From positions 186,001 through 250,000 of the forward strand of contig NZ_PJNW01000002.1 in assembly GCF_002844595.1 (NCBI RefSeq): a stretch of DNA of 64,000 nt, in the 5' to 3' direction. The notes under the pieces are model-generated. The model had not been told where the DNA came from and did not search any database. It saw only the letters and a list, made by a program, of their open reading frames with translations. Below, in pieces: positions 5,298 through 25,629 of the stretch (the stretch's first letter is position 1; each line of letters starts with the position of its first letter). This DNA comes from Pleomorphomonas diazotrophica. Its GTDB lineage: Bacteria > Pseudomonadota > Alphaproteobacteria > Rhizobiales > Pleomorphomonadaceae. A program made the position numbers and the translations under genes.

Positions 5298-5334
5298 GGT
5301 TCGGCCCGGCAGGATTTGCCGGATGAGCCGAACC
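5298..5334 (+). terminator. Compound hairpin after the ycjX/ycjF operon
   Basis: Outer stem GGTTCGGC (5298-5305) / GCCGAACC (5327-5334) encloses an inner stem CCGGCA / TGCCGG (5306-5311, 5317-5322). It begins 13 bases after the stop codon, so it may end the upstream operon, although no T-run follows. The inner stem is also the candidate enhancer site of the flgE promoter listed separately. Confidence 0.45.
5307..5321. promoter_or_regulatory. FlbD/ftr-like palindrome upstream of flgE
   Basis: CGGCA-GGATT-TGCCG, 94 bases upstream of the flgE sigma-54 element. The same CGGCA-N5-TGCCG palindrome recurs 94 bases upstream of the flgI promoter and 86 bases upstream of the flgF promoter. In Caulobacter, FlbD activates sigma-54 flagellar promoters from ftr elements about 100 bases upstream; the match in place and pattern is seen, the binding is inferred. 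Confidence 0.6.
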
Positions 5335-5345
5335 TTGCCGGCGCG

Positions 5346-5361
5346 TTAACTTCTTGTTCAC
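5346..5361. promoter_or_regulatory. Degenerate CtrA-like site upstream of flgE
   Basis: TTAA-N7-TTCAC, one mismatch from TTAA-N7-TTAAC. It lies between the ftr-like site and the sigma-54 promoter of flgE. Weak evidence on its own. Confidence 0.3.
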
Positions 5362-5415
5362 CAGGGACAAACGCCTGTTTCCTGAAAACAAACGGAAAAA
5401 ATCGGAGCGGCCGTT

Positions 5416-5430
5416 TGGCACGCCCGTTGC
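5416..5430 (+). promoter_or_regulatory. Sigma-54 promoter of the flgEKL hook operon
   Basis: TGGCACGCCCGTTGC fits the -24/-12 consensus TGGCACG-N4-TTGC at every fixed position. It lies 62 bases before the flgE start codon, giving a transcript start near 5441 and a leader of about 50 bases. Confidence 0.85.
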
Positions 5431-5492
5431 CCTTAGATCGGTAGCGGCCAATCGTCCGGCCGACCGCGTTGCAGATCGTAAGGGAAACGAGC

Positions 5493-6995
5493 ATGGGTAT
5501 CCTGACCGCAATGAACTCGGCCGTTGGCGGCCTCGGAGCGCAGTCCTTCGCCCTCGAGAATATCTCGGGCAACATCGCCAACTCCTCGACCACCGGCTTC
5601 AAGCGCAAGGACACCAGCTTCGGCGACCTCGTGCGCTCCAACACCTCCAATGCAGCCCGCGTCACCTCGGGTGGCGTCACGGCCAACTCGCGTTCGACCA
5701 TCACGCTCGACGGCGACATCCAGGGCTCGAAGGTCGACACACACCTTGCCATCAACGGCACCGGCTTCTTCTCGGTGTCCGCCGACCCGCTCGATAACAC
5801 GCTGGGTACCCGATATACCCGCGCCGGCGACTTCGAGCAGTATTACGACTCGCGCAACGGCCAGACCTACCTGCGCAACGCGTCCGGCTACAGCCTGATC
5901 GGCGTCAATCTGACGCCGGCTGTCGGTGAGGACCCGAAAGGCCCGATCACCATCGACAAGACGTCGCAGAGCGCCAAGGCCAGCACCCAGATCACCTACA
6001 AGCTCAACCTGCCGACCGAGCCGGTGACGACCCATTCCGCCGCCAACAAGACGGTTGCCGGTGCCAACATCTACAATCCCGACTGGCCTAGCGGCGCCGC
6101 TGCGGGTCCAATTCCCTACCAGATCGCCAATACCGGCAGGGTGGTCGGTACGCAGGTCTCGGACTTCATGGACAACTCGATTTCCGGCGGCACGGTCACG
6201 GTTTACGATGCCCAGGGCACTCCCGCCGTCGTCCAGCTCCGCTGGGCGAAGTTCGAGGAAACCAGCACGGGCCGCAGTGAATGGGGACTGTTCTATCGCA
6301 ACCTGGAGACCTACAACTCCGCCAACACGACCGATGCCGTCTGGACGCAAATCCCCTCGGGCACCACGATCACCGACGGTACGCTGGGACGCCAGGCGAT
6401 AACCGACGGAACCAACGCGCCTGGCAATGCTGCCTGGGTCGAGACCTACGCCAGCCCGGTTGCCAATCCCACCGGGTTCTTCTTCGACAAGAACGGCAAG
6501 CAGCTCGACTCCACGTCGTCGTTGGCGATCACCAACCTCACCGTTGGCGGCAAGAACTTCGGCACCATGACGCTCGACATGGGCGCTACCGAGTTCGCCG
6601 ACAAGAATGGCCTCGCCTCCACCAGCCAGCTGACGCAGGACGGCTATTCGACGGGCGCTTTCGAGGGGGTATCGATCGACGATAACAGCGGTATCGTCAG
6701 CTACAACTACTCGAACGGCCAGACTGTCGAGAAGTGGAAGATCCCGATCGTCGCCTTCAACGGCGCGAGCTATCTCAAGGCGGAAGACGGCGGCGCCTAT
6801 ACCGAAACCATCCAGAGCGGCAGCCCGATCGATATCGACGGCGCTCTCTCGAGCTCGGCCCTCGAGGCGTCCAACGTGGACATCTCCGAAGAGTTCACCA
6901 AGCTGATCGTCACGCAGCAGGCCTTCTCGGCCAACTCCAAGGTCATCACGACGGCCGACCAGATGATGTCGGACATCCTGCAGATCATCCGCTGA
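5493..6995 (+). CDS. flgE: Flagellar hook protein FlgE
   Basis: A 500-residue hook subunit. The N-terminal rod/hook motif ANSSTTGFKRKDTSFGD is at about residues 29-45 and the C-terminal D0 helix ends in FSANSKVITTADQMMSDILQIIR-type sequence, the coiled-coil pair shared by axial proteins. It is exported by the flagellar type III system and polymerises into the hook. Start chosen at ATG 5493 (MGILTAMNSAVGG), with a purine-rich GGGAAACGAG just ahead; an earlier TTG in frame is unconvincing. First gene of flgE-flgK-flgL, driven by a near-perfect sigma-54 promoter, which matches the class III position of flgE in Caulobacter. Confidence 0.95.
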   Translation: MGILTAMNSAVGGLGAQSFALENISGNIANSSTTGFKRKDTSFGDLVRSNTSNAARVTSGGVTANSRSTITLDGDIQGSKVDTHLAINGTGFFSVSADPLDNTLGTRYTRAGDFEQYYDSRNGQTYLRNASGYSLIGVNLTPAVGEDPKGPITIDKTSQSAKASTQITYKLNLPTEPVTTHSAANKTVAGANIYNPDWPSGAAAGPIPYQIANTGRVVGTQVSDFMDNSISGGTVTVYDAQGTPAVVQLRWAKFEETSTGRSEWGLFYRNLETYNSANTTDAVWTQIPSGTTITDGTLGRQAITDGTNAPGNAAWVETYASPVANPTGFFFDKNGKQLDSTSSLAITNLTVGGKNFGTMTLDMGATEFADKNGLASTSQLTQDGYSTGAFEGVSIDDNSGIVSYNYSNGQTVEKWKIPIVAFNGASYLKAEDGGAYTETIQSGSPIDIDGALSSSALEASNVDISEEFTKLIVTQQAFSANSKVITTADQMMSDILQIIR

Positions 6996-7072
6996 TGCCT
7001 CTGGCGGCGGTCGCGCTCGCTGCGTGACGGCCGCCTCCCCAATCCGCGACGATTACCGACTGCGAGACGGAT

Positions 7073-8971
7073 ATGGCTGTATCGAGTGCCCTTTCCACGG
7101 CTTTGTCCGGCATCAGGACGACCCAGCAACAGTTGGGCGTCACGTCGGCCAATATCGCCAACGCCAAGAGCACCGGCTACAGCCGCCTGTCGACCTCGTC
7201 GTCGGCACAGGTTGCCAACTCGCGGGTCTACGGTGTCGAGGCCAACCAGGTCACGCGCGAGATCAACCTTCTCGTGCAGAAGCAGTGGCGGGTCTCGCAG
7301 GCCAACTCCGCCTATGCCGAGACGCGCGTCACGGCGCTGTCGGCACTGGACAACTACTGGGGCGCCCCCAACAGCGCCAGCTCGCTCAACTCGGTCTACA
7401 GCAGCTTCACGACCACGCTGCAGAAGCTGGCGACCACGCCCGGCGACACGGCGCTGCAGGGCAGCGCGGTGTCGGCGTCGCAAAACCTCGTCACCCGCCT
7501 CAACCAGCTGTCGGGCGACGTGCAGTCGCTACGCCAGGAGGCGGAATCCAACATCGGCAATGCCGTCAGCCGCGTGAACTCGCTGCTGGAAACCATCGCC
7601 GAACTCGACAAGCAGGTGGTGGCGGTTGGTGCCGGTGGCGTCAACAGCACCGCCGCCTTGCAGGACAAGCGCGACGCTGCCATCGACGAGCTGTCCGAGT
7701 ACATGGACATTCGGGTCACCGATCAGCCGGGCGGCGCCATCGCTATCTCGCTGACCGACGGTACCCAGCTCTACGACGACGTGGCGGTGACGCTGAGCTT
7801 CGACCAGCAGGGCGTGGTCGATGCCTCGCGTGTCTACTCGACCGACGACAGCCAGCGCTCGCTCGGCACCATTCGTATCAGCTCTGGCCCTGGTTCGGGT
7901 GTCGACCTCTTCAAGAGCGGATCGATCCGCTCGGGCAAGATCGCCGCCTACAAGGAACTGCGCGACGAGACGCTGGTCGACGCCCAGGCCCAGCTCGACA
8001 CCATTGCCGCGACGCTGTCGAGGGCGACGTCGACGCGCCAGGCAGCCGGCACGACCGTGACTGGCGCCGGTACGGCCGGCTATACGCTGGACGTCTCGGG
8101 CCTCACCGAGGGCAACACCCTCAAGGTTGAGTATACCACCGCCGCCGGCACCAAGGGGTCGCTCACCTTTGTCGCCCACAATGGCGGCACCGCCCCCGGC
8201 AATGGATTCACGCCAGATCCCAACGACACGGTCGTCGGTCTCGATCTGTCGAGCGGCACCGATATCGGCGCCCAGATCGCAGCGGCGCTCAATGCCGCGA
8301 ATGGCGGCGGCACCGACTTCACCGGGGCGGCGTTGCCTGCGCCGCCGGCCGCTCCGACCTCGGTCACGATCAATGCGACGACGGCTGCGGGAGCCCACGG
8401 CGTCGTCAACAGCCTGTCCGGCGAGATCTCCGTGCCGTCCGAGCAGGCGGGATACCAGGAATATCCGCTGTTCATCGACGGCTCCACCGGCAAGCCCTAT
8501 ACCGGCCTGACCGGCGGCGCCGACACCATCACCGGTCTTGCCTCGCGCATCTCGGTCAATCCCAAGGTGGTAGCCGATCCGTCGCTGACGGTGAAGTACA
8601 GCGGCAGCACCTTGTCGGGCGACGGCACGCGGCCGCAGGCGATCCTCGACGCGCTCGACAGCCGTGTCTTTTCCTATTCCTCCTCGATCGGCATCGGCTC
8701 GGTCACCACACCGTTCAAGGGCACCTTCGAGGGGCTGCTGTCCCAGGTGGTCAACACCCAGGGCTCCATCGTCGAGGACGCCAAGAATGTCGCCGACGGC
8801 CAGAAGGTCGTCACCTCGAATCTCAAGGAACGCTACGACAACAGCCGTGCCGTCGACCTCGACACCGAGCTTATGTCGCTGATCCAGCTTCAGAACTCCT
8901 ATTCGGCCAACGCCCGGGTTCTATCCGTGGCGCAGGAGCTGATGGATGTTCTGATGGCCACGTTCAAGTAG
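7073..8971 (+). CDS. flgK: Hook-associated protein 1 FlgK
   Basis: A 632-residue protein beginning MAVSSALSTALSGIRTTQQQ with the axial-protein motif SANIANAKSTGYSR near residues 25-38, and ending SYSANARVLSVAQELMDVLMATFK-like, as in FlgK. FlgK forms the first hook-filament junction ring. The central part (~residues 320-480) contains Gly/Thr-rich beta domains, a longer insert than in the enterobacterial protein. It starts 77 bases after flgE, with no promoter or terminator seen between, and is followed 35 bases later by flgL, so the three are probably one operon. Confidence 0.93.
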   Translation: MAVSSALSTALSGIRTTQQQLGVTSANIANAKSTGYSRLSTSSSAQVANSRVYGVEANQVTREINLLVQKQWRVSQANSAYAETRVTALSALDNYWGAPNSASSLNSVYSSFTTTLQKLATTPGDTALQGSAVSASQNLVTRLNQLSGDVQSLRQEAESNIGNAVSRVNSLLETIAELDKQVVAVGAGGVNSTAALQDKRDAAIDELSEYMDIRVTDQPGGAIAISLTDGTQLYDDVAVTLSFDQQGVVDASRVYSTDDSQRSLGTIRISSGPGSGVDLFKSGSIRSGKIAAYKELRDETLVDAQAQLDTIAATLSRATSTRQAAGTTVTGAGTAGYTLDVSGLTEGNTLKVEYTTAAGTKGSLTFVAHNGGTAPGNGFTPDPNDTVVGLDLSSGTDIGAQIAAALNAANGGGTDFTGAALPAPPAAPTSVTINATTAAGAHGVVNSLSGEISVPSEQAGYQEYPLFIDGSTGKPYTGLTGGADTITGLASRISVNPKVVADPSLTVKYSGSTLSGDGTRPQAILDALDSRVFSYSSSIGIGSVTTPFKGTFEGLLSQVVNTQGSIVEDAKNVADGQKVVTSNLKERYDNSRAVDLDTELMSLIQLQNSYSANARVLSVAQELMDVLMATFK

Positions 8972-9006
8972 GCGGCCTCGCGCCGCCAAGTCACGGGTAG
9001 AATGCC

Positions 9007-10668
9007 ATGTCGATCAACAGCGTGCTCGTCAGCCCCAACATGTCGCTTCTCTCGACCATGCGGGAGCAGCTCGAGGACATGCAGCGCCAGCTCTCCACCG
9101 GGCAGAAGGCGGCGACCTACGGCACGCTCGGTCCCGGGCGGACCCAGTCGATCACCTTCCGCTCGAAGATTTCCGAGATCAACGGCTACCTTCAGAACAC
9201 CGACGTCCTGAACATGCGCATCTCGCTGCTGGACAAGGCGATGGGGCGTCTTGAGGACATTCCCAGCGAGGCGTCGGCCGCCATCGATCCCAACACCTAC
9301 AACATCGATTCCACCGGCACCACCACCGGCCAGAAGGGCGCCAAGATCGCCTTGAACGAGGTGATCGGCTTGCTCAACTCCGAGGCCGACGGCCGCTATC
9401 TGATGTCGGGCAAGACCACCGACACCAAGCCGGTGGTCGGCATGAACGAGATGCTCTACGGCACCGGCAGCAAATACGGGCTTCAGAAGGTCGTCGCTGA
9501 GCGCTACACGGCGGACCTTGGCACCGGCAAGCTCGGCCGCCTCAACCTCGACAATCCCGTGGCCACTCCCGACACGGTGACGATCACCCGTCAGGGTACG
9601 CCGCCCTCCGCCGAGTTCGGCTACAAGATCGCCTCGGCGTCGGCCTCGACCACCGATACCACCCATATCGCGGTGACGCCGACCACGGGCCTCGACAGCG
9701 CCGGCGACACCGTCAACACCGCCTATGGCGTGCAGTTCGGCGCCAACCTGCAGGCCGGCGACAGCGTCTCGCTGGAGCTCGAAAACCCCGATGGCACGAA
9801 ATCGACCGTCAAGCTGACGGCGACGCTGACCAGCCCGCCCGGCGAGGGCCAGTTCACCATCGCCCAGGATACCAGCACCACGCCGCCCACGGTCGACGTC
9901 AACGCGACCGCCGCCAACTTCAAGACCCGTCTTGAAGACAGCCTCAAGATCGAAGCGAAGACCACCTTCCATGCGGCGTCGATGATGCGGGCGTCCGAGA
10001 CCTTCTTTGAAACGGCCAGTGGCGGCAAACCGCAGCGGGTCGACGTCCTCGATCCCACCGACAACAGCCAGTTGGCTACCGCCACAGGGCTGCGCGACGG
10101 TACCGACACGGACACGGTTGACTGGTATGTGGGCTACAACGCGACGATCGACCCCGCCGACAGCGCGACGTCGCCGCGCAACGACGTGACGGCGCGCGTC
10201 GACACCAACATCACCGTTGGTTACGGCGTCCGGGCCAACGAGGCCGCCTATACGGAAATGGTGCGCTCGCTCGCCGTCATGACCGTTGCCGAGTTCGACC
10301 CGAAGGCCGGCACGCTGGGCGACCCCAACGCGACAACCGACGCTGAGCGGCAGCAGAACCTCAAAGTCGAGAAGGCTCGCTACTCGGCCTTGGCCTCGCG
10401 GGTGGACGGTGTCCTCGCCTTCGCCGACGGCAGCCAGAAGCCGACCGACATCCACACGGAAATCGCCGTGTCCGGCAATGTCGCCAAGAGTGCGGCCGAG
10501 CGGCAGACCAACTCCAAGACGACGCTGCAGGTGATGCTGGACGGCGTCGAGGGCATCAACAAGGAAGAGCTGACGGCGCAGATCCTGACGCTGCAGACCC
10601 GGATGGAAGCGAGCTACACCACGTCGATGATGCTCAACAACCTCAGCCTTCTCAACTACATGAAGTAA
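9007..10668 (+). CDS. flgL: Hook-associated protein 3 FlgL, long form
   Basis: A 553-residue flagellin-like junction protein. The N-terminal region has MREQLEDMQRQLSTGQKAATYGTLGPGRTQSITF, equivalent to the flagellin N-domain, and the C-terminus has KEELTAQILTLQTRMEASYTTSMMLNNLSLLNYMK-like sequence. Enterobacterial FlgL is about 320 residues; the excess here lies in a middle region (~residues 190-400) of Thr/Asp-rich, probably beta-structured sequence. A downstream hairpin ends the operon. Identity rests on gene order after flgK and on the terminal helices. Confidence 0.88.
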   Translation: MSINSVLVSPNMSLLSTMREQLEDMQRQLSTGQKAATYGTLGPGRTQSITFRSKISEINGYLQNTDVLNMRISLLDKAMGRLEDIPSEASAAIDPNTYNIDSTGTTTGQKGAKIALNEVIGLLNSEADGRYLMSGKTTDTKPVVGMNEMLYGTGSKYGLQKVVAERYTADLGTGKLGRLNLDNPVATPDTVTITRQGTPPSAEFGYKIASASASTTDTTHIAVTPTTGLDSAGDTVNTAYGVQFGANLQAGDSVSLELENPDGTKSTVKLTATLTSPPGEGQFTIAQDTSTTPPTVDVNATAANFKTRLEDSLKIEAKTTFHAASMMRASETFFETASGGKPQRVDVLDPTDNSQLATATGLRDGTDTDTVDWYVGYNATIDPADSATSPRNDVTARVDTNITVGYGVRANEAAYTEMVRSLAVMTVAEFDPKAGTLGDPNATTDAERQQNLKVEKARYSALASRVDGVLAFADGSQKPTDIHTEIAVSGNVAKSAAERQTNSKTTLQVMLDGVEGINKEELTAQILTLQTRMEASYTTSMMLNNLSLLNYMK

Positions 10669-10703
10669 GGGACGCTGGCGGCTTTATCCGCTTGCCGCAA
10701 ACG

Positions 10704-10741
10704 AAACCGCCGACCGGGCTGCGACCTGGTCGGCGGTTTGC
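10704..10741. terminator. Bidirectional terminator between flgL and flbT
   Basis: A 12-base-pair perfect stem AAACCGCCGACC (10704-10715) / GGTCGGCGGTTT (10728-10739) with a 12-base loop. The A and T flanks could serve both converging transcripts. Confidence 0.8.
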
Positions 10742-10784
10742 ATTTGCGGACGCCATCTCGGGGGAGTGAACTTGTCGCTCGGCC

Positions 10785-11198: not shown

Positions 11199-11222
11199 CT
11201 CTTCGCAATCCTGTCAGGGGGG

Positions 11223-12692: not shown

Positions 12693-13019
12693 GCGCGTGC
12701 CTCTGGTGGATGCCTTTCGGGGCGGCTCGTTGCATTTTGAGAATCATACCATCCAACTCGTTAAAAATAGCTGTTCGCCAGACGATGAAAAGACGGGAAC
12801 AGTCCGAAAAATCGGCCTAATTTTCGATTTTCCGCCATTAACCTTTGGATCGGTCGCTGTGGCTCCGCATGTACGACCAAAGACGTACTTGGGCGGAATT
12901 CGGTGGCGAAGACGGCATTTGAACCAATGCATTAACGGGTCGGCAACACCTCGGCGCTAGGGTCGGCGCACTTCCTCAGAAAGGGGAAGACCAATCACCC
13001 AAGGAATGGGATACAAGAA
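12693..13019. other. Divergent intergenic region between two flagellin genes
   Basis: AT-richer than its surroundings. It holds a TTAAC half-site (12838-12842), a small hairpin CTTCC/GGAAG (12971-12989) and the leader hairpin listed separately. I find no sigma-54 match with correct spacing and no full CtrA box, so both flagellin promoters remain unidentified. Confidence 0.5.
12998..13010 (+). promoter_or_regulatory. Leader hairpin with SD in its loop, flagellin 1
   Basis: CCCA-AGGAA-TGGG: a 4-base-pair stem whose loop is the AGGA ribosome binding site, 9 bases before the ATG. The same element precedes the flagellin at 15383. Candidate FlbT contact site (inference). Confidence 0.55.
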
Positions 13020-14849
13020 ATGTCTGAGATCAACCTGACCAAGGCCGTCCGTCAGAACCTGCTCACGCTGCAGGGCACCGCCTCGATGATGGCGAAGACG
13101 CAGAACAAGCTGGCCACCGGCAACAAGGTCAACTCTGCCCTCGACAATCCCTCGAACTACTTCACCGCCGCGTCGCTGAACTCTCGTGCCAGCGATCTCG
13201 GCAACCTGATGGATTCGATGGCGAGCGGCATCAAGACGATCGAAGCCGCCGACAACGGCCTCTCCTCGATCACCAAGACCCTCGAGTCGATGCAGTCGAC
13301 GCTGCGTCAGGCCCGCCAGGACAAGTCCTTCGAGACCGCGTCGTTCAGCCTCGACCCGGCCAACGTCGCACTCGGTTCTTCGCCGCAGCTCAAGTTCGTT
13401 GGCGGTGCGTTCGGTACGACGACGCCGGCTGTCGATCTGACCACGACTGGCTCCGGCCAGGCTGTGACCGGCAATGTTGCCTACGCGGCGCCGGTTGCTG
13501 CGACCAAGGCTTCGGCCAGCGGTAACGTCAATCTGTTGACGAATGCCGGCGGTGTCACCGGCGGCTCGCTCAGCATCACCTACGCTGGTAAGACCGTTAC
13601 GTCGACCATCGGCGCTTTCGCTGCGGCGGCCGACGCGAGGAGCGTGGCCACAACCATTCAGCAAGCGATCGACGGCAGCGATCTCGCCGGCAAGCTGACT
13701 GCCACGATCGACGGTTCCAACCAGCTGAAGATCGAAGCCACCGACACCCAGAACAGCGATATCACGTTCGGCGGTACGGCTGGCTTGGCTGCTGAACTGG
13801 TGGGTGCCGGTGCGTCGGGTGCGGCATCGGATGCCGTGGCAGCTGCAGGCGTGAACCACAAGGGCCATTCGGGCAAGACCGAGTTCTCCGTCAATGGTAC
13901 GGCGATTTCGCTTGACACCACGACTGGCTCGAACCTCACGACGGCTGTCGACAACATCAACAAGACGCTTGCGGCATCCGGATCCAAGTTCAAGGCCGTT
14001 GCAAGCGCCGGTAAGCTTGCGATCCAGGCGGCAACCACTGATGCCGGCAGCCTGCAGATCACAGGTAATGACGCCGACATCTTCTCCGCGACTGCCGATG
14101 TCACCAGCGTTGCCGGTGCTGCGACCAGCGGCCTCAACCTGCTGAAGACCGTCGACACGCTTGTGTCGGAGATCAATAGCGGATCGGGAACGACCGGTCT
14201 GGTGAAGGCTTCCAACGACAACGGTAAGCTGCGTGTGCAGAACCTGTCGACGCAGGATCTGCAAATCCAGGGTACCAACTCGTCGGGTAAGATCACCGGC
14301 AGCAACAGCAACAGCTCGACCGTGGACGGCAACTCCGTTCGTTCGGGCCTCGCTGACCAGTTCAACGAACTTCGCGACCAGCTCGACAAGCTGGCTGACG
14401 ACGCCTCGTTCAACGGTATCAACCTGCTGCGTGGCGACAAGCTGACGATCACCTTCAACGAGACCGGCACCTCGTCGATCGATATCCTGGCCAAGGACGG
14501 CAAGTCCGTCGACTCCACCACCCTCGGCGTGCCCACCACGCTGACGGCCAAGGACCTTGACTCGGATAGCGATATCGACGTCACGCTGGGCAAGGTGAAG
14601 ACGGCCCTCAATACGGTCCGTTCGCAGTCTTCGGCCTTCGGCTCGAACCTGTCGGTCGTCGAAAACCGCCAGAACTTCTCGAAGAGCATGATCAACACCC
14701 TGCAGACGGGCGCCGGCAACCTGACGCTCGCCGACATGAACGAGGAAGCGGCCAACATGGTTGCGCTGCAGACCCGCCAGTCCCTGGCGACCTCCTCGCT
14801 CTCCATGGCCAACTCGGCCGACCAGAACGTGCTTCAGCTTCTCCGCTGA
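13020..14849 (+). CDS. Flagellin 1
   Basis: A 609-residue flagellin. N-terminal D0/D1 helices (SEINLTKAVRQNLLTLQGTA, LATGNKVNSALDNPSNYFTA) and C-terminal helices (EEAANMVALQTRQSLATSSL, ending NVLQLLR) are standard; a Thr/Ala/Gly-rich central region of ~300 residues forms the exposed D2/D3 domains. It is nearly identical to flagellin 2 over the first ~100 and last ~200 residues. Exported and polymerised into the filament. A strong rho-independent terminator follows directly, so it is monocistronic. The leader carries a hairpin that may bind FlbT. Confidence 0.95.
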   Translation: MSEINLTKAVRQNLLTLQGTASMMAKTQNKLATGNKVNSALDNPSNYFTAASLNSRASDLGNLMDSMASGIKTIEAADNGLSSITKTLESMQSTLRQARQDKSFETASFSLDPANVALGSSPQLKFVGGAFGTTTPAVDLTTTGSGQAVTGNVAYAAPVAATKASASGNVNLLTNAGGVTGGSLSITYAGKTVTSTIGAFAAAADARSVATTIQQAIDGSDLAGKLTATIDGSNQLKIEATDTQNSDITFGGTAGLAAELVGAGASGAASDAVAAAGVNHKGHSGKTEFSVNGTAISLDTTTGSNLTTAVDNINKTLAASGSKFKAVASAGKLAIQAATTDAGSLQITGNDADIFSATADVTSVAGAATSGLNLLKTVDTLVSEINSGSGTTGLVKASNDNGKLRVQNLSTQDLQIQGTNSSGKITGSNSNSSTVDGNSVRSGLADQFNELRDQLDKLADDASFNGINLLRGDKLTITFNETGTSSIDILAKDGKSVDSTTLGVPTTLTAKDLDSDSDIDVTLGKVKTALNTVRSQSSAFGSNLSVVENRQNFSKSMINTLQTGAGNLTLADMNEEAANMVALQTRQSLATSSLSMANSADQNVLQLLR

Positions 14850-14882
14850 CGCCAAGTCTGGCCGAATCAAACGACAGATGTG

Positions 14883-14914
14883 GGGGCGGGCCAGAAGGCC
14901 CGCCCCTTCTTTTT
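14883..14914 (+). terminator. Terminator of flagellin 1
   Basis: Perfect 10-base-pair GC stem GGGGCGGGCC (14883-14892) / GGCCCGCCCC (14897-14906), AGAA loop, then TTCTTTTT. Confidence 0.92.
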
Positions 14915-15382
14915 GCGCTCTTTCATTTTGCACCCGCCGGTTTGGGGCGAGCGGCGCTCCTTTCCATGTTCTTAACGAACTGTTTCGATCTCCTTGCTGG
15001 GCAATGGCGAGGCTTTGCCCGCTATGCTGGGCCGGCGTTTGTCGCGTCTATGTGAAATAAGTAATTAAATCAATATTTTGCATCGTATCGATGCGGTGTG
15101 GCTGACGCTTGTCCATCGGATTGGGCGAGCCGGTGCGCGCGATAGAAGCCGTTCCGGCCATTGTGGATCGGATGCCTTGGTTTGCTCCGGTTAACAAGGG
15201 TTTATCCGAATTAATTCCGCTTCGTTGCAAAACGCCACTGAGAAACTTTTTGTTAACCATGTCGGGTGTTAACTCGCATCCGAAAGGCACCGCCGCGTCC
15301 GCCGTTCTTGATGGTCGACGGTCAGGTCCGGTTCGTTTTCGGGTGAAAGAAACCCGTCAGCCCAAGGAAGTGGGATGCAGAA
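14915..15382. other. Intergenic region upstream of flagellin 2
   Basis: About 470 bases without a convincing gene. It contains several TTAAC words: TTAACGAAC near 14973, a near CtrA box TTAA-N7-TTATC (15191-15206), TTAACC near 15254 and TTAACTC near 15269, plus a hairpin CGGGT/ACCCG (15340-15356) and the leader hairpin of flagellin 2. A TGGCGA-N4-TTTGC-like string at 15005-15018 has sigma-54 character but the spacing is one base short. Confidence 0.5.
15361..15374 (+). promoter_or_regulatory. Leader hairpin with SD in its loop, flagellin 2
   Basis: CCCA-AGGAAG-TGGG, 8 bases before the ATG at 15383. Equivalent in place and sequence to the element ahead of flagellin 1. Confidence 0.55.
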
Positions 15383-17179: not shown

Positions 17180-17213
17180 CGCCGACTCCGGAGAGGGCAA
17201 GAACGAAATGCAA

Positions 17214-17904: not shown

Positions 17905-17931
17905 GCGAGGGGGGAGGTACCCCAGAACAGC

Positions 17932-17955: not shown

Positions 17956-17999
17956 GTCGTTTGTGGGCTCATCGGTCCGGGCGCGGTCGCACGGGGAGC

Positions 18000-18383: not shown

Positions 18384-18706
18384 TATCCTTTTCCGCGAAT
18401 CCCATGGGGTTCGCCTGAAAAGGACGTTAGCATTGAAAAATGAAAGCGGCGTTTAGGAAACTGGTAAAGTTTTATCGATCCGGCGTTTTCCGCAGGTTAC
18501 TGAATGGTCGAATTGTCTGGGAGAGTACGGGCTGTCGCTCCTCCGGCCGCTTCAGATAAGGGCTCAAGTCTTAACAAAGCGCCAACGGATGGGGCCGCCG
18601 ACCATGGAAAGATTGACAATCCGCGACAACACGTAGGTCGCATCCGTTCGGCGGGCTGCGCCGGTCATGCGGTGACGCTGATGTCAGCGAAACGGGACGA
18701 AGCGGG
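18384..18706. other. Intergenic region, FlaG-like gene to flgN-like gene
   Basis: About 320 bases. The upstream side of the FlaG-like gene is A/T-rich near 18420-18480; a short frame at 18504-18752 has no recognisable product and runs into the convergent flgN-like gene. I see no terminator or sigma-54 site. Confidence 0.4.
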
Positions 18707-19186: not shown

Positions 19187-19506
19187 TCGGCGCGCCCTTC
19201 CTGTATCTTGATCAGTTGCGCGGCGATGCCGTCGGCGATGCCGATGCCGCCCTTCTTGACGAAATCCATGGCGTATTGATCCAGCAGCATGTCGCGCCAG
19301 GTTTCGTTGGACGTATTCGAGGTGCCGGTCAGCGGGTCGACCGACACGTCCTTGAACATGGCCTTGAAGGCGTCGGCGACATAGATCGACTCGAAGTCGG
19401 CGGCGACCTCGTGGGCCTTCCTGGCCACGGCGTTCCTGTCCATGCCGGCATAGGCCTTCGAGGCGAAGGCGGAGGCGACCGAGGAGAGACCGTTGGTTTC
19501 CATCAC
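19183..19506 (-). CDS. Rod-binding protein, FlgJ N-terminal domain only (CheL)
   Basis: A 107-residue protein consisting of the rod-binding domain: AADFESIYVADAFKAMF and WRDMLLDQYAMDFVKKGGIGIAD match the FlgJ N-terminal domain. The muramidase domain of enterobacterial FlgJ is absent, as is usual in alphaproteobacteria, where a separate hydrolase does that work. It caps the growing rod in the periplasm. ATGA-type overlaps with flgI upstream and flgN-like downstream indicate tight co-translation. Confidence 0.88.
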   Translation of the reverse strand: MMETNGLSSVASAFASKAYAGMDRNAVARKAHEVAADFESIYVADAFKAMFKDVSVDPLTGTSNTSNETWRDMLLDQYAMDFVKKGGIGIADGIAAQLIKIQEGRAE

Positions 19507-20615
19507 ATCACCTCCACGTCGGCCTGCAGCGCGCCGGCCGCCTTGATTGCCTGGAGTATGGAGATGAGGTCACGCGGGCCGAGGCCGAGCGCGTTGAGCC
19601 CGTCGACCAGTTCCTGCAGCGTCACGCCGGAGCGGACAACGGCGAGCTGGTGCTCCTTGCCGTCGGCGACCTGGATCTGGGTCCGTGGCGTCACAGTGGT
19701 TTCGCCGTCCGACAGCGGCGCCGGCTGCGACACCTGCGGGTCCTCGGTGATCATCACCGTGAGGTTGCCCTGGGCGACGGCCACCGTCGACACGCGCACT
19801 TCCTGGCCCATGACGATGATGCCGGTGGCCTCGTCGACGACAACCTTGGCCGGCAGGTCCGGCTCGACGATCAGTTGCTCGACGTCGGTCAGGAGGTCGA
19901 CGATGTTGCCCCGGAACTTGGGCGGCATCGACAAGCGAACGGTGGAGGGGTCGGTCGGCTCGGCCACCGGCGAGCCGTAGAGGTCGTTGATGGCGAGGGC
20001 GATACGACGCGAGGTGGTGAAGTCAGGATTGCGCAGCGACAGGCGTACGGCGCCGAGCTGCGCGAGATTGAACTGCAACTCGCGCTCGATGACGGCGCCG
20101 TTGCTGATGCGCCCCTGGGTCGGCACGCCGCGGGAAATCTTGGCGCCTTCGCCCTGGATGTCGAAGCCACCGACGGCGATGGCGCCTTGGGCGATGGCGT
20201 AGACTTCGCCGTCAGCGCCCATCAGCGGCGTTACCAGGAGTTGGCCGCCCTGAAGGTTCTTGGCGTCGCCGAGCGCGCTGACCGACACGTCGATGGCGGT
20301 GCCCTGGGCGGCAAAGGCCGGCAGCTTGGCAGTGACCATGACGGCGGCCGTATTGGCGGTGCGCATGGTGGAATCGCGCACGTTGACGCCGAGCCGCTCC
20401 AGCATCGCCTGCAGGCTCTGCTTGGTGAAAGGCGAGTTGTTGAGGCTGTCGCCTGTGCCTTGAAGGCCGACGACCAGGCCGTAGCCGATGAGCTGGTTCT
20501 CGCGAACACCCTCGACGTCGACGATATCCTTGATGCGCGAGGCGGCAACCGCCGCTTCGGCGCCCATCAGGATGAGCATGAAGGCGCCCAGTGCGCCGAG
20601 AATCCTAATCCGCAT
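19503..20615 (-). CDS. flgI: Flagellar P-ring protein FlgI
   Basis: A 370-residue P-ring subunit. A Sec signal peptide (about 25 residues ending AAVAA) precedes SRIKDIVDVEGVRENQLIGYGLVVGL, the FlgI signature, and the end LGLGPRDLISILQAIKAAGALQA is also typical. Three ATGs crowd the start (20624, 20621, 20615); I chose 20615 because the GGGG at 20625-20628 is then 9 bases away. The gene has a perfect sigma-54 element 48 bases upstream and an ftr-like palindrome beyond it. It is divergent from fliX, as I recall for Caulobacter. Confidence 0.94.
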   Translation of the reverse strand: MRIRILGALGAFMLILMGAEAAVAASRIKDIVDVEGVRENQLIGYGLVVGLQGTGDSLNNSPFTKQSLQAMLERLGVNVRDSTMRTANTAAVMVTAKLPAFAAQGTAIDVSVSALGDAKNLQGGQLLVTPLMGADGEVYAIAQGAIAVGGFDIQGEGAKISRGVPTQGRISNGAVIERELQFNLAQLGAVRLSLRNPDFTTSRRIALAINDLYGSPVAEPTDPSTVRLSMPPKFRGNIVDLLTDVEQLIVEPDLPAKVVVDEATGIIVMGQEVRVSTVAVAQGNLTVMITEDPQVSQPAPLSDGETTVTPRTQIQVADGKEHQLAVVRSGVTLQELVDGLNALGLGPRDLISILQAIKAAGALQADVEVM

Positions 20616-20662
20616 TGTCATCATCCCCGTGTTTCCCGACACGGCTTCCCAACGAACGGTTC

Positions 20663-20677
20663 GCAATCGGCGTGCCA
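20663..20677 (-). promoter_or_regulatory. Sigma-54 promoter of flgI-flgJ-flgN
   Basis: On the minus strand TGGCACGCCGATTGC, a match at every fixed position of TGGCACG-N4-TTGC. Its -12 side lies 47 bases upstream of the chosen flgI start. Confidence 0.87.
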
Positions 20678-20771
20678 AGCTATGGGGAAATGGGGATTCT
20701 ATGTAAGTATTTGAAATATAATATATTCTCTAGGGGTTTGTGAGATCGGACCGGCGCCAGTGTTTTTGGGG

Positions 20772-20786
20772 CGGCATTTCTTGCCG
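20772..20786. promoter_or_regulatory. FlbD/ftr-like palindrome between flgI and fliX
   Basis: CGGCA-TTTCT-TGCCG, separated by 94 bases from the flgI -24 element, the same gap as at flgE. It is also 64 bases before the fliX start codon and could influence fliX. Confidence 0.6.
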
Positions 20787-20850
20787 GGCCGGCGGGGAAG
20801 CGGTAACCTTGGCGGGTCGAAACTGCCGGGTCAGCTTCAGGGAACGAGCG

Positions 20851-21273
20851 ATGCGCATTCAGGGTCCGAACCGCCTCGGTGGCGTCTCCACGGGGTCGCC
20901 GACCAAGCGAACCGATGGGTCGGGATTCGCGCTGCCGTCCGAGGGCGAGGGCGGCGCGCCGAAAGCCGCCACCGCCACGGCGACCCACGCGCTCGCCGGC
21001 CTCGATGCGCTGATCGCCCTGCAGGCGGTCGATGCCGATGCGCCGCGCAAGAAACGCAAGGCCGTCAAAAGAGGGCGCGACCTTCTGGATCGGCTCGACG
21101 AGATCCGCATCGGCCTCCTGTCCGGACAGTTGTCGGGCGAGGCGATTGCCCGCATCCTGAACCTTCTGGACGAAGCGGAGCCAACCGGCGATCCGCGTCT
21201 CGACGGCCTGATGGAGGACATCGCGCTGAGGGCGGAAGTGGAACTTGCCAAGCTCGGCTACTTCAGAAATTGA
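20851..21273 (+). CDS. fliX: Flagellar assembly regulator FliX
   Basis: A 140-residue FliX (MRIQGPNRLGG at the start; helical C-terminus RGRDLLDRLDEIRIGLLSG ... LMEDIALRAEVELAKLGYF). In Caulobacter FliX binds the sigma-54 activator FlbD and couples its activity to completion of the early basal body. Start set at ATG 20851, with AGGGAACG just upstream; the frame extends upstream without family resemblance. Divergent from flgI. Its presence implies an FlbD encoded elsewhere in the genome and fits the sigma-54/ftr signals in this window. Confidence 0.9.
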   Translation: MRIQGPNRLGGVSTGSPTKRTDGSGFALPSEGEGGAPKAATATATHALAGLDALIALQAVDADAPRKKRKAVKRGRDLLDRLDEIRIGLLSGQLSGEAIARILNLLDEAEPTGDPRLDGLMEDIALRAEVELAKLGYFRN

Positions 21274-21436
21274 GCAGCCCGCCCCTGGGTGATGACACGA
21301 AGTTAAGCTTAAATGATTGATATGTATGGCTAATCGCCTGCCCTACAAGGTTTGGTGATTTTCTTGCATTTGCCGTTGTCGGGCGGGGGTCAGATAGCTA
21401 TATTCCGCCCGCCTTTGTGGTGTATGAGGACCGTCG

Positions 21437-21853
21437 ATGTCGATTGAGCTTGCCGATGACTACCGGCCGTCCGACGACGAGCCGTTCATGAACGACCGCC
21501 AGCGCGAGTACTTCAGGCGCAAACTGCTTCAGTGGAAGGAGGACATCCTGCGCGAAAGCAAGGAGACCCTCCAGAACCTTCAGAACGAAAACACCAACCT
21601 GCCCGACATCGCCGATCGCGCGTCGTCGGAGACCGACCGGTCGATCGAGCTTCGGGCGCGCGACCGCCAGCGCAAGCTGATCTCCAAGATCGAGGCAGCC
21701 ATCAAGCGGATCGAGGATGGTTCCTATGGCTATTGCGAGGAGACCGGCGAGCCGATCTCGCTGAAGCGCCTCGACGCCCGTCCGATCGCCACGCTGTCGA
21801 TTGAGGCGCAGGAGCGGCACGAGCGGCGCGAGAAGGTCTATCGCGACGAGTGA
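21437..21853 (+). CDS. dksA: RNA polymerase-binding protein DksA
   Basis: A 138-residue DksA: a long coiled coil (residues ~20-90, with NLPDIADRASSETDRSIELRARDR including the Asp tip region) then the globular GYCEETGEPISLKRLDARP. DksA binds the secondary channel of RNA polymerase and potentiates ppGpp. Only one of the four zinc-finger cysteines is kept, which is common in alphaproteobacterial DksA and not a defect. It has its own terminator and sits inside the flagellar island, next to fliX, without an evident operon link. Confidence 0.93.
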   Translation: MSIELADDYRPSDDEPFMNDRQREYFRRKLLQWKEDILRESKETLQNLQNENTNLPDIADRASSETDRSIELRARDRQRKLISKIEAAIKRIEDGSYGYCEETGEPISLKRLDARPIATLSIEAQERHERREKVYRDE

Positions 21854-21880
21854 TGCTGCCGTCTTGAGCGGAACTGACGA

Positions 21881-21907
21881 AGGGGCGTCCTAAGGGCGCC
21901 CCTTTTT
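21881..21907 (+). terminator. Terminator of dksA
   Basis: AGGGGCG (21881-21887) / CGCCCCT (21897-21903) followed by a T-run to 21907. Confidence 0.85.
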
Positions 21908-22138
21908 CGTTGGTCTTGGTCGCTGGTTCCCGGCAGTTCGGATGTCTCCCTGGGCGCGACCTCCGTGATGACTTGGGAAGGGAGGTCGCGCCGCTCGGGG
22001 AAAGCCGGCCCGGACTTGGGGAAGGGGCCGGCGGGATCGCGTCGGGCCATTTGGGGAGCGGCCTTCGGCGATACGGCTCGCTTGGGATGCTTGGGGAGCG
22101 CGAGCCGATCTCTTGGGGGCTTGGAGCCGTGGCTTCCG

Positions 22139-22882
22139 TCAGAAGGGCAGCAGGATATCCAGCACCTGCTGGCCGGTGCGCGGCTGCTGCACGTCGGAGA
22201 TCTGGCCGCGGCCGCCGTAGGAAATGCGGGCCTCGGCGATCTTCGTGCTCTCGATGGTATTGTCGGCGGCGATGTCTTCGGGGCGGACGACGCCGGCCAC
22301 CACCAGTTCGCGGATCTCGTAATTGACGCGCACCTCCTGGCGGCCCTCGATGACGAGATTGCCGTTGGGCAGGAGCTGGGTCACGACGGCGGCGACGTTG
22401 GTCGACAGCTTTTCCGAGCGGTCGATCGAGCCGGTCCCCTTGTAGGACGAGGCGCCCTCGGTCGAGGCGAGATTGCTGGCCGCCATGCCGGCCGGCAGGG
22501 CGATGGTGTCGATGGCCGTGCCGAGCGCGCCGCCGACACCAGTCGAGTCGCTGGAGTCGCGCGAGCGTTCCGACGAGTTGTCGAAGGCGGCCTTGTCGGA
22601 GATCGACACCTTGACGGTGAGGATATCGCCGACATTGCGGGCGCGCTGGTCCTTGAAGAAGGTGCGCGAACCGGACTGCCACAACGAGTTGGGGCTGTAG
22701 GCCACCGGCTCGATGACGGGCATCGGCATCTGCACCGGCTTGTAGCCGGGCTGGGCGGTGGGGTTCTCGATGGCCGTCAGCTTGGGCGTCTGACCGACCT
22801 GCGACAGGCGGTCCATGGTGCTGCCGCAGGCGGAAAGGCCGATGCCGAGGAGGGCGATGGCGAGGGTGGTGGAGAAACGCAT
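22139..22882 (-). CDS. flgH: Flagellar L-ring lipoprotein FlgH
   Basis: A 247-residue L-ring subunit. The signal peptide ends in the lipobox LSAC with Cys19 as the acylated residue. Later motifs LWQSGSRTFFKDQRARNVGDIL and the NGNLVIEGRQEVRVNYE segment are FlgH signatures. It sits in the outer membrane as part of the LP bushing with FlgI. Last gene of flgF-flgG-flgA-flgH, 20 bases after flgA. The stretch between its stop and dksA (about 230 bases) shows no gene. Confidence 0.94.
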   Translation of the reverse strand: MRFSTTLAIALLGIGLSACGSTMDRLSQVGQTPKLTAIENPTAQPGYKPVQMPMPVIEPVAYSPNSLWQSGSRTFFKDQRARNVGDILTVKVSISDKAAFDNSSERSRDSSDSTGVGGALGTAIDTIALPAGMAASNLASTEGASSYKGTGSIDRSEKLSTNVAAVVTQLLPNGNLVIEGRQEVRVNYEIRELVVAGVVRPEDIAADNTIESTKIAEARISYGGRGQISDVQQPRTGQQVLDILLPF

Positions 22883-22902
22883 CGGATGATCCTCGGTTCT
22901 TC

Positions 22903-23892
22903 TCAGTTCATTGCCGTCTTGACGACGGTCGGGCTCGACGCCGTGACGGCAACGGTGCCGGCGCCGGTGACGATGCCCTGAATGGTGCGCTTGGACTGCT
23001 CGTTGAGCACGGAGACGATGTCTCCCTTGGCACCGTCACCGAGCGCGCGTCCGCGGGCGGAGAGCGTCAGGCCGGGGCGCGAGTACTGCAAGGTGATGAG
23101 GTCGCCGCGCAGGACGACGCGGGGCGGCTCGACGTCAGCAGTGGCGATCAACTCGCCGGCCCGGAGCGGGCGCTTGGCGGCCATGTCGACGAGTTCGTCT
23201 GTGTCGATCGCCGCCGTTCCCGGCACGCGCCGCTTGTCGATGCGGACGATGGTCACGTCGGACGCGTGGATGACGGCGCGGCGGTCGATCGGTCGGTTCA
23301 GCACCGGCACGGCCATGGTCTCGACGGCCCGGCCGGAGAGCGCAATCGGGCGGCTGCTGCCCCCGACATCGATGGCGATGATGGCGTTGAACCGGCCCGA
23401 TGCCGACTGCAGGACGAAGTCGGAGAGAACGGCCGGAGCTACGGCGGTCGCCGCGGCGGCAACCGGGGCGACGGTTCCGTCGATGGTCACCTCGACGTTT
23501 TCGGTCGCGGCGCCCAGGCGGGTGGCGGCGGCTTCGGCGACCAGCATCCTGAGGGCTTCGGCGTCGACCATGACGGCGCGGCGGACGACGGTCACGCTGG
23601 CGAAGGTCGGCAAGCGATCGACGGCGAGGCCGGCGGCGACGGCGGCCTTGACGGCGTCGGCGGCGGGCAGGGCGCCGGTGACGCCGAGGTCGGGCGCCCG
23701 GAACACGGCGCGGTCAGTAAGATCGCCGGCTCCGTCGAACAGGTCGCCGAGCGTGACGATGGCGCCGTCGATCTCGATGCGCGGCCGAAGGTCGGCCGCC
23801 GACGCCGGGTGGGTGGCGATGAAGCCGGCTGCGAGCGTGGCGAGCGCGGCGGCGAGAACGATCCGGAGGAGGAGGGCGTGCATCGTGGCCAT
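22903..23892 (-). CDS. flgA: P-ring assembly chaperone FlgA
   Basis: A 329-residue periplasmic FlgA with a signal peptide (hydrophobic core at residues 7-24, cleavage near ASA). The C-terminal SAF-like domain has MAAKRPLRAGELIATADVEPPRVVLRGDLI and GLTLSARGRALGDGAKGDIV, the classic FlgA pattern. It assists FlgI assembly. Longer than the enterobacterial protein because of an extra N-terminal domain of about 100 residues. It starts 3 bases after flgG ends. Confidence 0.92.
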   Translation of the reverse strand: MATMHALLLRIVLAAALATLAAGFIATHPASAADLRPRIEIDGAIVTLGDLFDGAGDLTDRAVFRAPDLGVTGALPAADAVKAAVAAGLAVDRLPTFASVTVVRRAVMVDAEALRMLVAEAAATRLGAATENVEVTIDGTVAPVAAAATAVAPAVLSDFVLQSASGRFNAIIAIDVGGSSRPIALSGRAVETMAVPVLNRPIDRRAVIHASDVTIVRIDKRRVPGTAAIDTDELVDMAAKRPLRAGELIATADVEPPRVVLRGDLITLQYSRPGLTLSARGRALGDGAKGDIVSVLNEQSKRTIQGIVTGAGTVAVTASSPTVVKTAMN

Positions 23893-23895
23893 GCC

Positions 23896-24684
23896 TTACT
23901 TGCCGAGGTTGGACGTCGTCTGCGACATCTCGTCTGCGGCCGTGATGATGCGAGAGTTCATCTCATAGGCGCGCTGGGCCGAGATGAGCGACGACAGTTC
24001 GCTCACCGACTCGACGTTGGAGGATTCGAGGTAGGACTGCAGCAGCGTGCCGTAGCCGGCATCGCCCGGATTGCCAGTCTGGGCGGCGCCGCTCGACGCC
24101 GTCTCGAGAAACAGGTTGTCGCCCATGGGCTCTAGACCGTTCTTGTTGACGAAGCGGGCGAGCTCGATCTGGCCGAGTACCGTCGCGGTCGTGTCGTTGC
24201 CGATCTTGGCCTGTACCTGGCCGGTGTTGGAAATGCTGAGGTCGCTGGCGTTCTGCGGCACGGTAATGGCCGGATTGACGGTGTAGCCGTCGGCGGTGAC
24301 CAGCGTGCCGGTGGAATCGAGCTCGAAGGAGCCGTCGCGGGTGTAGGCGGTCCGGCCATCGGGCAGGGTGATCTGGAAGAAGCCCTCGCCACGGATGGCG
24401 ATGTCCTTGTCATTGCCGGTGGACTCGGGGTCGCCCTGCGTCATGTTGCGCGGCGTTGCGACGACACGTACGCCCGAACCGAGCTGCACGCCGGCCGGCA
24501 CCTGGGTGCCGGCGTCGGACGTGGTGGCGCCCTGCCGGCGCAGCGTCTGGTAGAGCAGATCCTGGAAGTTGGCGCGCTGGCTCTTGTAGCCGGTGGTGCG
24601 CATGTTGGCGATGTTGTTGGAGATAACGTTGACGTTGGTCTCCTGGGCCTTCATGCCGGTGGCGGCGATGGTCAGGGCTTTCAT
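23896..24684 (-). CDS. flgG: Flagellar distal rod protein FlgG
   Basis: A 262-residue distal rod subunit of standard length. N-terminus MKALTIAATGMKAQETNVN with NNIANMRTTGYKSQRANFQ, C-terminus LESSNVESVSELSSLISAQ and INAADEM-like ITAADEMSQTTSNL. Exported by the type III system. Co-directional with flgF, 16 bases downstream of it. Confidence 0.95.
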   Translation of the reverse strand: MKALTIAATGMKAQETNVNVISNNIANMRTTGYKSQRANFQDLLYQTLRRQGATTSDAGTQVPAGVQLGSGVRVVATPRNMTQGDPESTGNDKDIAIRGEGFFQITLPDGRTAYTRDGSFELDSTGTLVTADGYTVNPAITVPQNASDLSISNTGQVQAKIGNDTTATVLGQIELARFVNKNGLEPMGDNLFLETASSGAAQTGNPGDAGYGTLLQSYLESSNVESVSELSSLISAQRAYEMNSRIITAADEMSQTTSNLGK

Positions 24685-24700
24685 GTTCTATCGCTCCGGA

Positions 24701-25444
24701 TCAGGCGTTGACGGAGCCGAGGCGCTCGATCGCCCTGGCGCTGAGGTCGTTCTGCTGCTTGACCATGTTGGAGATGCGCTCGTAGGCGCGCTGGACGCCC
24801 AGCATGGCGGTGAGTTCCTGAACGCCCGAGACGTTGGACTTCTCGAGGGCGCCCTGGCGGACGCGGACAAAGGCAGGGGGCGTGGGTGCGGCGCTGGCCG
24901 AATAAAGGTTGTCGCCGTCCTTGGAGAGCACGCTCGTGTCGGTGAAGGCGGCGATGCGGAGCCTGCCCTTCAGGCCGGCACTGGAGGAGATGGTGCCGTC
25001 GCGGGCGATGGCAATGTTGGTCTCTTCGTTGCCGAAGACGATCTCGCCGCCGTCGCCGAGCACGGGCTTGCCGTCGGCGGTCACCAGACGGCCGGTGTTG
25101 TCGATGGCAAAATCGCCGGCGCGGGTATAGCGCTCGCCGGCCGGCGTTCCCACGACGAAGAAGCTGTCCTCGGCTTCGATCGCCACGTCGAGCTCGTTGC
25201 CGGTCATCTCGACCGAGCCGGCCGAGAAGTCATGAACCGTGGCCAGCTCGCGGACGAAGCGGTTGTCGCGGTCGCGGCGAGGAAAAAGCGTTGCCGACGC
25301 CTTCGGCATCGTCGTCTCCTCGAAGTCGAGCGAAACGCGCTTGAAGCCGGCGGTGTCCATGTTGGCTACGTTGTTGGCGATGACGTCCAGCTTGCGCCTC
25401 AGCGCAACCTGACCCGACAGCGCCACCAGAGTTGCATTCTGCAT
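24701..25444 (-). CDS. flgF: Flagellar proximal rod protein FlgF
   Basis: A 247-residue rod protein (VIANNVANMDTAGFKRVSLD near the N-terminus; LEKSNVSGVQELTAMLGVQR at the C-terminus). First gene of the flgFGAH operon. A sigma-54 element lies 69 bases before the start codon, with ftr-like palindromes further up. The same operon order and sigma-54 class III control are known for Caulobacter flgF. Confidence 0.94.
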   Translation of the reverse strand: MQNATLVALSGQVALRRKLDVIANNVANMDTAGFKRVSLDFEETTMPKASATLFPRRDRDNRFVRELATVHDFSAGSVEMTGNELDVAIEAEDSFFVVGTPAGERYTRAGDFAIDNTGRLVTADGKPVLGDGGEIVFGNEETNIAIARDGTISSSAGLKGRLRIAAFTDTSVLSKDGDNLYSASAAPTPPAFVRVRQGALEKSNVSGVQELTAMLGVQRAYERISNMVKQQNDLSARAIERLGSVNA

Positions 25445-25513
25445 GGCAAATCGTTCCCAAGTCCCAGTCGGACGGCGTCACGCTCCCCAGCGTCGCCGCC
25501 CGAGACATTCATC

Positions 25514-25528
25514 GCAGGGAACGTGCCA
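25514..25528 (-). promoter_or_regulatory. Sigma-54 promoter of flgFGAH
   Basis: Minus strand TGGCACGTTCCCTGC: matches TGGCACG-N4-TTGC except for C in place of the first T of TTGC; the invariant GG and GC are kept with exact spacing. Confidence 0.75.
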
Positions 25529-25583
25529 ACTTGGTATGTAAGGTATTTCAATTGGTTATCGGCTCTTTGTCGGCGAAGACCCA

Positions 25584-25598
25584 TGGCGTTTCTTGCCG
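25584..25598. promoter_or_regulatory. Secondary ftr-like site, flgF promoter
   Basis: TGGCG-TTTCT-TGCCG, two mismatches from CGGCA-N5-TGCCG but with the same TTTCT spacer as the flgI site. A further TTGCCG-AC-CGGCAA inverted repeat overlaps it (25593-25606). Confidence 0.4.
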
Positions 25599-25614
25599 AC
25601 CGGCAAGCCGAGGG

Positions 25615-25629
25615 CGGCAACTTTTGCCG
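25615..25629. promoter_or_regulatory. FlbD/ftr-like palindrome between flgF and fliL
   Basis: CGGCA-ACTTT-TGCCG, 86 bases upstream of the flgF -24 element and only 5 bases from the CtrA-type boxes that precede fliL. It may activate flgF and repress fliL (inference by analogy with FlbD repression of early genes). Confidence 0.6.

Follow-up and report, generated by a model that had tools for sequence, protein, structure and literature searches.

In Caulobacter, FlbD activates the class III flagellar genes and represses class II genes including fliF, the late promoters require IHF, and FliX controls FlbD by contact (PMC3096577 and PMC3930126, available portions). The element ftr4 represses fliF (PMC3930126), most of the rod genes depend on RpoN and FlbD, flgB is repressed by CtrA, and CtrA boxes sit near -35 (PMC6180460), according to the accessible parts of these papers. 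In this study, we analyzed 64,000 nucleotides of Pleomorphomonas diazotrophica (contig NZ_PJNW01000002.1, positions 186,001 to 250,000; this whole stretch is called the window below), in which the palindrome CGGCA-N5-TGCCG stands upstream of the sigma-54 promoters of flgE, flgI, and flgF. Very probably this short palindrome at flagellar genes serves as a docking site of FlbD; it is best read as the counterpart of the Caulobacter ftr elements. We hold with high confidence the reading as a whole, namely that the palindrome would be an FlbD site from which late genes are switched on and early genes off, with coupling through FliX.

The sites in this genome resemble the ftr elements of Caulobacter crescentus in lying near sigma-54 flagellar promoters in a genome with both FlbD and FliX; IHF-like sites occur in the spacers of some relatives. 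The flgF copy looks close to the Caulobacter ftr consensus, C-CGGC--AAA--GC-G. By contrast, ftr2 and ftr3 are named downstream elements, judging by the title of a paper, whereas the sites here are upstream. In the fla2 system of Rhodobacter sphaeroides, short promoter regions between divergent flagellar genes contain CtrA boxes, as here, but no FlbD is reported in the Rhodobacteraceae shown in that work, and no role of RpoN in fla2 expression (PMC6180460, accessible part, including unpublished results cited there). A genome-wide list of Caulobacter FlbD sites exists (Fumeaux et al., cited in the available part of PMC12421884), which may already hold early-gene FlbD sites beyond fliF. In a search covering the open-licence literature, we recognized no printed description of FlbD sites outside Caulobacter.

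The first-pass annotation of this DNA had proposed that the palindrome is shared, at a fixed distance, by all three sigma-54 promoters. Using TGGCACG-N4-TTGC as the sigma-54 consensus and measuring gaps to the end of the -24 element, we found the three palindromes as exact matches at the places it gave, with the spacers GGATT (5307-5321), TTTCT (20772-20786), and ACTTT (25615-25629), and with gaps of 94, 94, and 86 at flgE, flgI, and flgF, respectively, just as it had stated. "All three" was also correct for the window, which has only three sites with at most one mismatch to the consensus. Pfam bore out the gene names flgE, flgI, and flgF as well as the presence of fliX beside one copy. The features are as follows; scores refer to a site matrix made from 98 distinct sites of relatives, with same-family loci and six named close relatives left out.

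5276..5290, no strand: second candidate FlbD-like site for flgE (CGCCA AATAA TGCCG, one arm mismatch; gap 125 to -24; matrix 15.8)
5307..5321, no strand: candidate FlbD site upstream of flgE, ftr-like palindrome (gap 94; matrix 23.2, the top score of the window)
5416..5430, plus strand: sigma-54 promoter of flgE, TGGCACGCCCGTTGC (0 mismatches to consensus)
5493..6995, plus strand: flgE, hook protein (Pfam FlgE/F/G domains; start codon picked by reading)
19503..20618, minus strand: flgI, P-ring protein (Pfam PF02119)
20663..20677, minus strand: sigma-54 promoter of flgI, TGGCACGCCGATTGC (0 mismatches to consensus)
20772..20786, no strand: candidate FlbD site in the flgI/fliX intergenic region (gap 94 to flgI -24; about 64 bases before fliX; matrix 18.3)
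20851..21273, plus strand: fliX, regulator of FlbD activity (Pfam PF10768 over cut-off; start codon picked by reading)
24701..25444, minus strand: flgF, rod protein (Pfam FlgE/F/G domains; named by position before flgG)
25514..25528, minus strand: sigma-54 promoter of flgF, TGGCACGTTCCCTGC (1 mismatch to consensus)
25615..25629, no strand: candidate FlbD site in the flgF/fliL intergenic region (gap 86; matrix 23.0)
25646..25660, minus strand: CtrA-like box TTAACGATTGGTTGA (16 bp from the candidate FlbD site, fliL side)
25790..26299, plus strand: fliL, early gene divergent from flgF (Pfam PF03748)

Thus listed, fliX lies opposite flgI and fliL opposite flgF as divergent neighbors. The five highest matrix scores in the window were at 5307 (23.2), 25615 (23.0), 36024 (19.9; upstream of flgB, see below), 20772 (18.3), and 5276 (15.8), followed by two places inside open reading frames (ORFs) with 13.3 and 12.4. 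When the same genus and family were included in the training, these seven places kept their order. That the five best places all lie at flagellar promoters carries weight for their being candidate FlbD sites. The 5276-5290 site overlaps the final codons of the upstream ORF 4290-5285, and its score of 15.8 is sometimes reached by random sequences; like the other relevant one-mismatch copy, 36024-36038, it has an A+T-rich core. A fourth exact CGGCA-N5-TGCCG, absent from the first-pass annotation, was found at 13822-13836 within a flagellin ORF; its core is richer in G+C and its score is 2.4, and it looks like a chance copy.

Judged by FlgI, the nearest named relatives belong to Pleomorphomonas, order Hyphomicrobiales, with three loci at 95-96% identity. 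Lack of conservation in relatives, which had been named as the outcome that would speak against the element, was not what we found: among 80 named flgI loci, found with FlgI, we inspected the 200 bases preceding the best sigma-54-like site, and the palindrome there was exact in 71, with one mismatch in 7, two in 1, and three in 1. These loci are not independent, since many are from Bradyrhizobium and Methylobacterium. The gap was 82-98 in 69 of the 78 loci with at most one palindrome mismatch, indicating a preferred range rather than a fixed value. We consequently dropped 94 as a fixed distance; relatives spread from about 74 to 110 and beyond, with clusters near 75, 84-87, 95, and 106. In a rough helix-phase test with 20 flgI and 16 flgE/flgF values (distinct family-gap pairs), 0 and 50 of 5000 uniform draws, respectively, equalled the observed phasing; such phasing is only suggestive and we place no weight on it, the signal being broad (periods 9.5 to 12 alike) and the test assuming a uniform background over a limited range.

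Across 199 genomes of Hyphomicrobiales, own genome included, we counted 46 pairs, in 40 genomes, of a palindrome and a sigma-54-like site 78-108 bases further on, against 0 for the reversed pattern. This is a lower bound, because the -12 part of the scan pattern is too narrow and misses the window's own three sites. Twenty-seven of the 46 adjoin fliX (flgI), and the other 19 lead into FlgE (14), FlgK (1), nothing recognized (1), or a gene with FlgG as its best downstream match (3, read as flgF operons). FliX was present in all 40 genomes. Furthermore, an IHF-like site with at most one mismatch was observed in 25 of 70 flgI spacers, namely those of the 80 named loci that fit the pattern used for this count, and in 0 of 70 mononucleotide shuffles.

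The element is also found before early genes, where it follows a CtrA box:

36000..36014, plus strand: CtrA box TTAACCATTCATTAA upstream of flgB
36024..36038, no strand: candidate FlbD site in a presumed repressor position (CGGCA AATAT TGCCT, one arm mismatch; 9 bp past the CtrA box; matrix 19.9)
36148..36558, plus strand: flgB, first gene of a flagellar operon (Pfam Flg_bb_rod; named by domain and position; start codon picked by reading)

The same layout of CtrA box, 9 bp, and palindrome stands before flhA outside the window (L035:8848-8886, in the same genome). The 199 genomes were scanned for TTAA-N7-TTAA followed after 1-29 bases by CGGCA-N5-TGCC, and 132 such pairs were obtained in 86 genomes, with a single match for the reversed control. 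The gap was 9 in 66 pairs, 8 in 8, and 4-6 in 30, the remainder being scattered. For 43 of the 74 pairs with a gap of 8 or 9, those lying in 40 retrieved stretches, the downstream gene within 400 bases was flgB in 27, flhA in 12, fliO in 3, and none of the query genes in 1.

At fliF, also outside the window in this genome, a weaker FlbD-like site stands past a CtrA-like box. In 30 fliF loci including our own, a degenerate site was observed at a gap of 9 in 12 and of 8-11 in 19, under a loose rule that gave some match in 27 of the 30. Similarly, a hand count of the fliF loci of 20 FlbD-bearing genomes of the class outside the order gave 11 in which the site follows a CtrA-like box (at most one mismatch) by 9-10 bp, 7 with the site without such a box, and 2 with nothing. 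As a separate observation, a full palindrome (L035:18463-18477) precedes the fliF start by about 100 bases; it is upstream also of the fliF CtrA-like box, and an exact copy upstream of fliF occurs in a few relatives (L206, L216, and L218).

On the fliX side, the arrangement is another one. The 32 pairs within 400 bases of fliX had a gap of 4 or 5 in 22 and of 8 or 9 in none. In 63 of the 80 named loci, a CtrA-like box within one mismatch of the consensus (8 exact) stood precisely 5 bp from the flgI/fliX palindrome, towards fliX. Among single relatives, this box is degraded in L049, L052, and L053, as in the window, and present in L050 and L051. For flgF/fliL, a CtrA box at 5 bp from the palindrome was dropped as a candidate, the conserved box sitting 14-16 bp away in many relatives' loci.

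We consider it probable, from the layout and the Caulobacter precedent, that FlbD shuts off early genes from the site 9 bp past the CtrA box. It is rather unlikely, in our judgement, that the palindrome is an FlbD site from which FlbD at flgB and flhA aids activation or tunes timing beside CtrA, with no repression. Such a role would agree with fliX and many fliL loci, where the site flanks the CtrA box on its opposite side (at 5 bp and often 14-16 bp, respectively) and need not block the early promoter. It would also agree with the one-mismatch sigma-54-like sites within 250 bases downstream of 4 of the 43 CtrA-palindrome pairs, compared with 1% of 400 random pieces, so that sigma-54 may serve some of these operons as well. 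However, a gap of 9 bp places the palindrome center 24 bases past that of the CtrA box, and since CtrA boxes lie near -35 (PMC6180460, accessible part), the palindrome should overlap the -10 region. Moreover, the studied case, Caulobacter fliF, is repressed (PMC3096577 and PMC3930126, available portions).

As the binder, the first-pass annotation had put forward FlbD as the prime candidate, and the gene for it was found outside the window, about 2 kb past fliF on the same strand:

L035:13073-14452, minus strand: FlbD, 459 residues (NCBIfam FlbD equivalog, 825 bits against a cut-off of 750)

This protein has receiver, sigma-54 AAA, and Fis-type helix-turn-helix domains. Caulobacter vibrioides was the only control genome matched by the equivalog model, the 13 others giving no match. 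Within the order, FlbD was found at 608 bits or more in 35 of 61 genomes, the next protein scoring 289; the CtrA-palindrome pair occurred in 24 of these 35 and in 0 of the 26 genomes without FlbD. In addition, fliX was present in 83 of the 86 genomes with the pair and in 33 of the 113 without it; the completeness of the three pair-bearing genomes without FliX was 58%, 78%, and 99%. The FliX of the window matches the NCBIfam FliX models below their cut-offs. The equivalog FlbD in the genome and the co-occurrence of the palindrome with FliX (40/40) and FlbD (24/35 vs 0/26) thus support the proposed binder well, though indirectly.

It is improbable that another regulator, either a different sigma-54 activator or an as yet unnamed flagellar one, binds the palindrome. 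The genome does hold several other sigma-54 activators (11 PF00158 matches including FlbD, 8 above 100 bits), but the co-occurrences just given speak against this, as do the other strict sigma-54 matches. Of the 8 strict sigma-54 matches in the genome, only those of flgE and flgI are preceded within 300 bases by an exact palindrome; flgF falls outside this strict set, because its promoter has one mismatch. Among the other six, no exact palindrome was found within the same 300 bases, and one (C11:179111, own genome) has a one-mismatch copy 16 bases upstream.

Several observations weigh against the FlbD reading, in addition to the sigma-54-like sites downstream of 4 of the 43 pairs. Throughout the 4.53 Mb genome, the bare palindrome occurs 55 times, compared with 69 for the reversed pattern, showing no enrichment. 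In 40 random sequences of the length of the window, the best matrix score was 22.2 and the next 18.1, so that a single score near 20 is no proof of a site. The flgF loci are weaker than flgI, with 11 exact palindromes, 13 with one mismatch, and 6 worse among 30 loci including our own; 3 of the 11 exact ones are at loci without a recognized sigma-54 site. The IHF-like sites of our own genome are weak as well (1 mismatch at flgI and flgF, 2 at flgE), and in the window's own fliX promoter (20786-20851) the 5 bp CtrA box of the relatives is degraded. There are 33 fliX-bearing genomes of the order without the exact CtrA-palindrome pair. In the class, the strict pair (gaps 4-14) was found in only 10 of 289 genomes, 7 outside the order and 3 inside, with 1 match for the reversed control; since FlbD occurs in 137 of the 289, the pair is no general property of FlbD. 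Finally, the genomes and loci compared are related, and Fisher and shuffle numbers overstate their independence.

The count of bare copies bears on one further statement of the first-pass annotation, that the palindrome being equally common away from sigma-54 promoters would speak against the element. For the bare arms this is indeed the case, most of the 55 copies lying elsewhere, and we rejected the bare palindrome as a genome-wide marker because it is not commoner than the reversed control; for sites with the conserved core and flanks, it is not the case. True sites are marked by the A+T-rich core, position, and conservation, not by the bare arms. Among the 50 of these 55 copies that were listed, inspection covered the three flagellar copies, 13822, those preceding flhA and fliF, and six more with A+T-richer cores; of these six, 4 were inside ORFs and 2 between ORFs. 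With copies at the density seen genome-wide, the chance of finding one in the 150 bases preceding any given promoter is about 0.0018, which argues that three of three promoters with the palindrome are not due to chance, with the caveat that the pattern was picked after seeing these very sites. That the palindromes are chance copies or transcription terminators in G+C-rich DNA hardly deserves credence: it could appeal to the 55 bare copies and to the 5307 copy, which begins 21 bases past the stop codon of ORF 4290-5285, but the exact palindrome in 71 of 80 named flgI loci refutes it for the flgI copy, a terminator would serve no purpose between divergent genes, the setting of two of the three copies, and the matrix trained outside the family places the flagellar copies first in the window.

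On the FlbD reading, the following mechanism is the most likely. FlbD would bind about 75-110 bases upstream of the -24 element at flgE, flgI, and flgF, as the positions and their conservation indicate, and a bend made by IHF would help it to touch the sigma-54 polymerase and start late transcription, as in Caulobacter; the upstream palindromes would act as enhancers through the bent loop. The first-pass view of an enhancer for one activator agrees with these late-gene sites but is incomplete, the same element standing also before early genes past the CtrA box. There, at flgB, flhA, and more weakly fliF, the palindrome 9 bp past the box would cover the -10 region, so FlbD at this place would block the early promoters and turn off genes turned on earlier by CtrA, by analogy with Caulobacter fliF. 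FliX would couple both acts of FlbD to basal-body assembly, again as in Caulobacter. An early-off, late-on FlbD switch appears likely because FlbD represses fliF in Caulobacter.

The ftr4 element of Caulobacter fliF has its counterpart in the FlbD-like site past the CtrA-like box at fliF, placed 8-11 bp away in 19 of the 30 loci from the order and 9-10 bp away in 11 of 20 genomes of the class outside it. Unlike ftr4, exact CtrA-FlbD pairs in this order are found at flgB and flhA. Since the Caulobacter rod genes are mostly dependent on RpoN and FlbD and flgB is CtrA-repressed there (PMC6180460, accessible part), the control of flgB seems to have changed. The kind of site is already known, and the ordered layout exceeds the earlier claim. 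On balance we lean slightly towards a broader view, in which much of Hyphomicrobiales would share one spacing-coded word: about 75-110 bases before a sigma-54 promoter it would turn late genes on, 9 bp past a CtrA box it would turn early genes off, and on the opposite side of the box, at 4-6 bp, it would serve the divergent flgI/fliX; in this lineage the rod gene flgB would have moved from FlbD-activated, as reported for most rod genes of Caulobacter, to CtrA-activated and FlbD-repressed, the regulator changing its sign while the type of site was kept.

Some other features were observed around these genes. Upstream of three flagellin-like genes (12693-13019 and 14850-15382), we found no sigma-54-like site with at most two mismatches, no palindrome with at most one mismatch, and no pairing of the two; TTAACC-like words are present there instead. 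In this respect they differ from the flagellin genes of Caulobacter, which are RpoN-dependent (PMC3930126, available portion). A 1315-residue ORF (29453-33400 of the window), located between the fliM region and fliP, had no match in a search of NCBIfam only. Elsewhere in the genome (C11:836850-865121), a second, divergent flagellar set gave FliF-, FlgF/FlgG-, and FlgE-like matches, which points to this genome having a second flagellar system.

For FlbD outside Caulobacter, these results would provide a definition of the site that is exact and testable, together with a map of its flagellar sites, in the order to which Bradyrhizobium belongs. With its sharp spacing of 9 bp, the CtrA-FlbD pair would offer a simple handle on how early flagellar genes could be switched off and late ones on by an assembly signal, and also on the evolutionary change of a regulator's sign.

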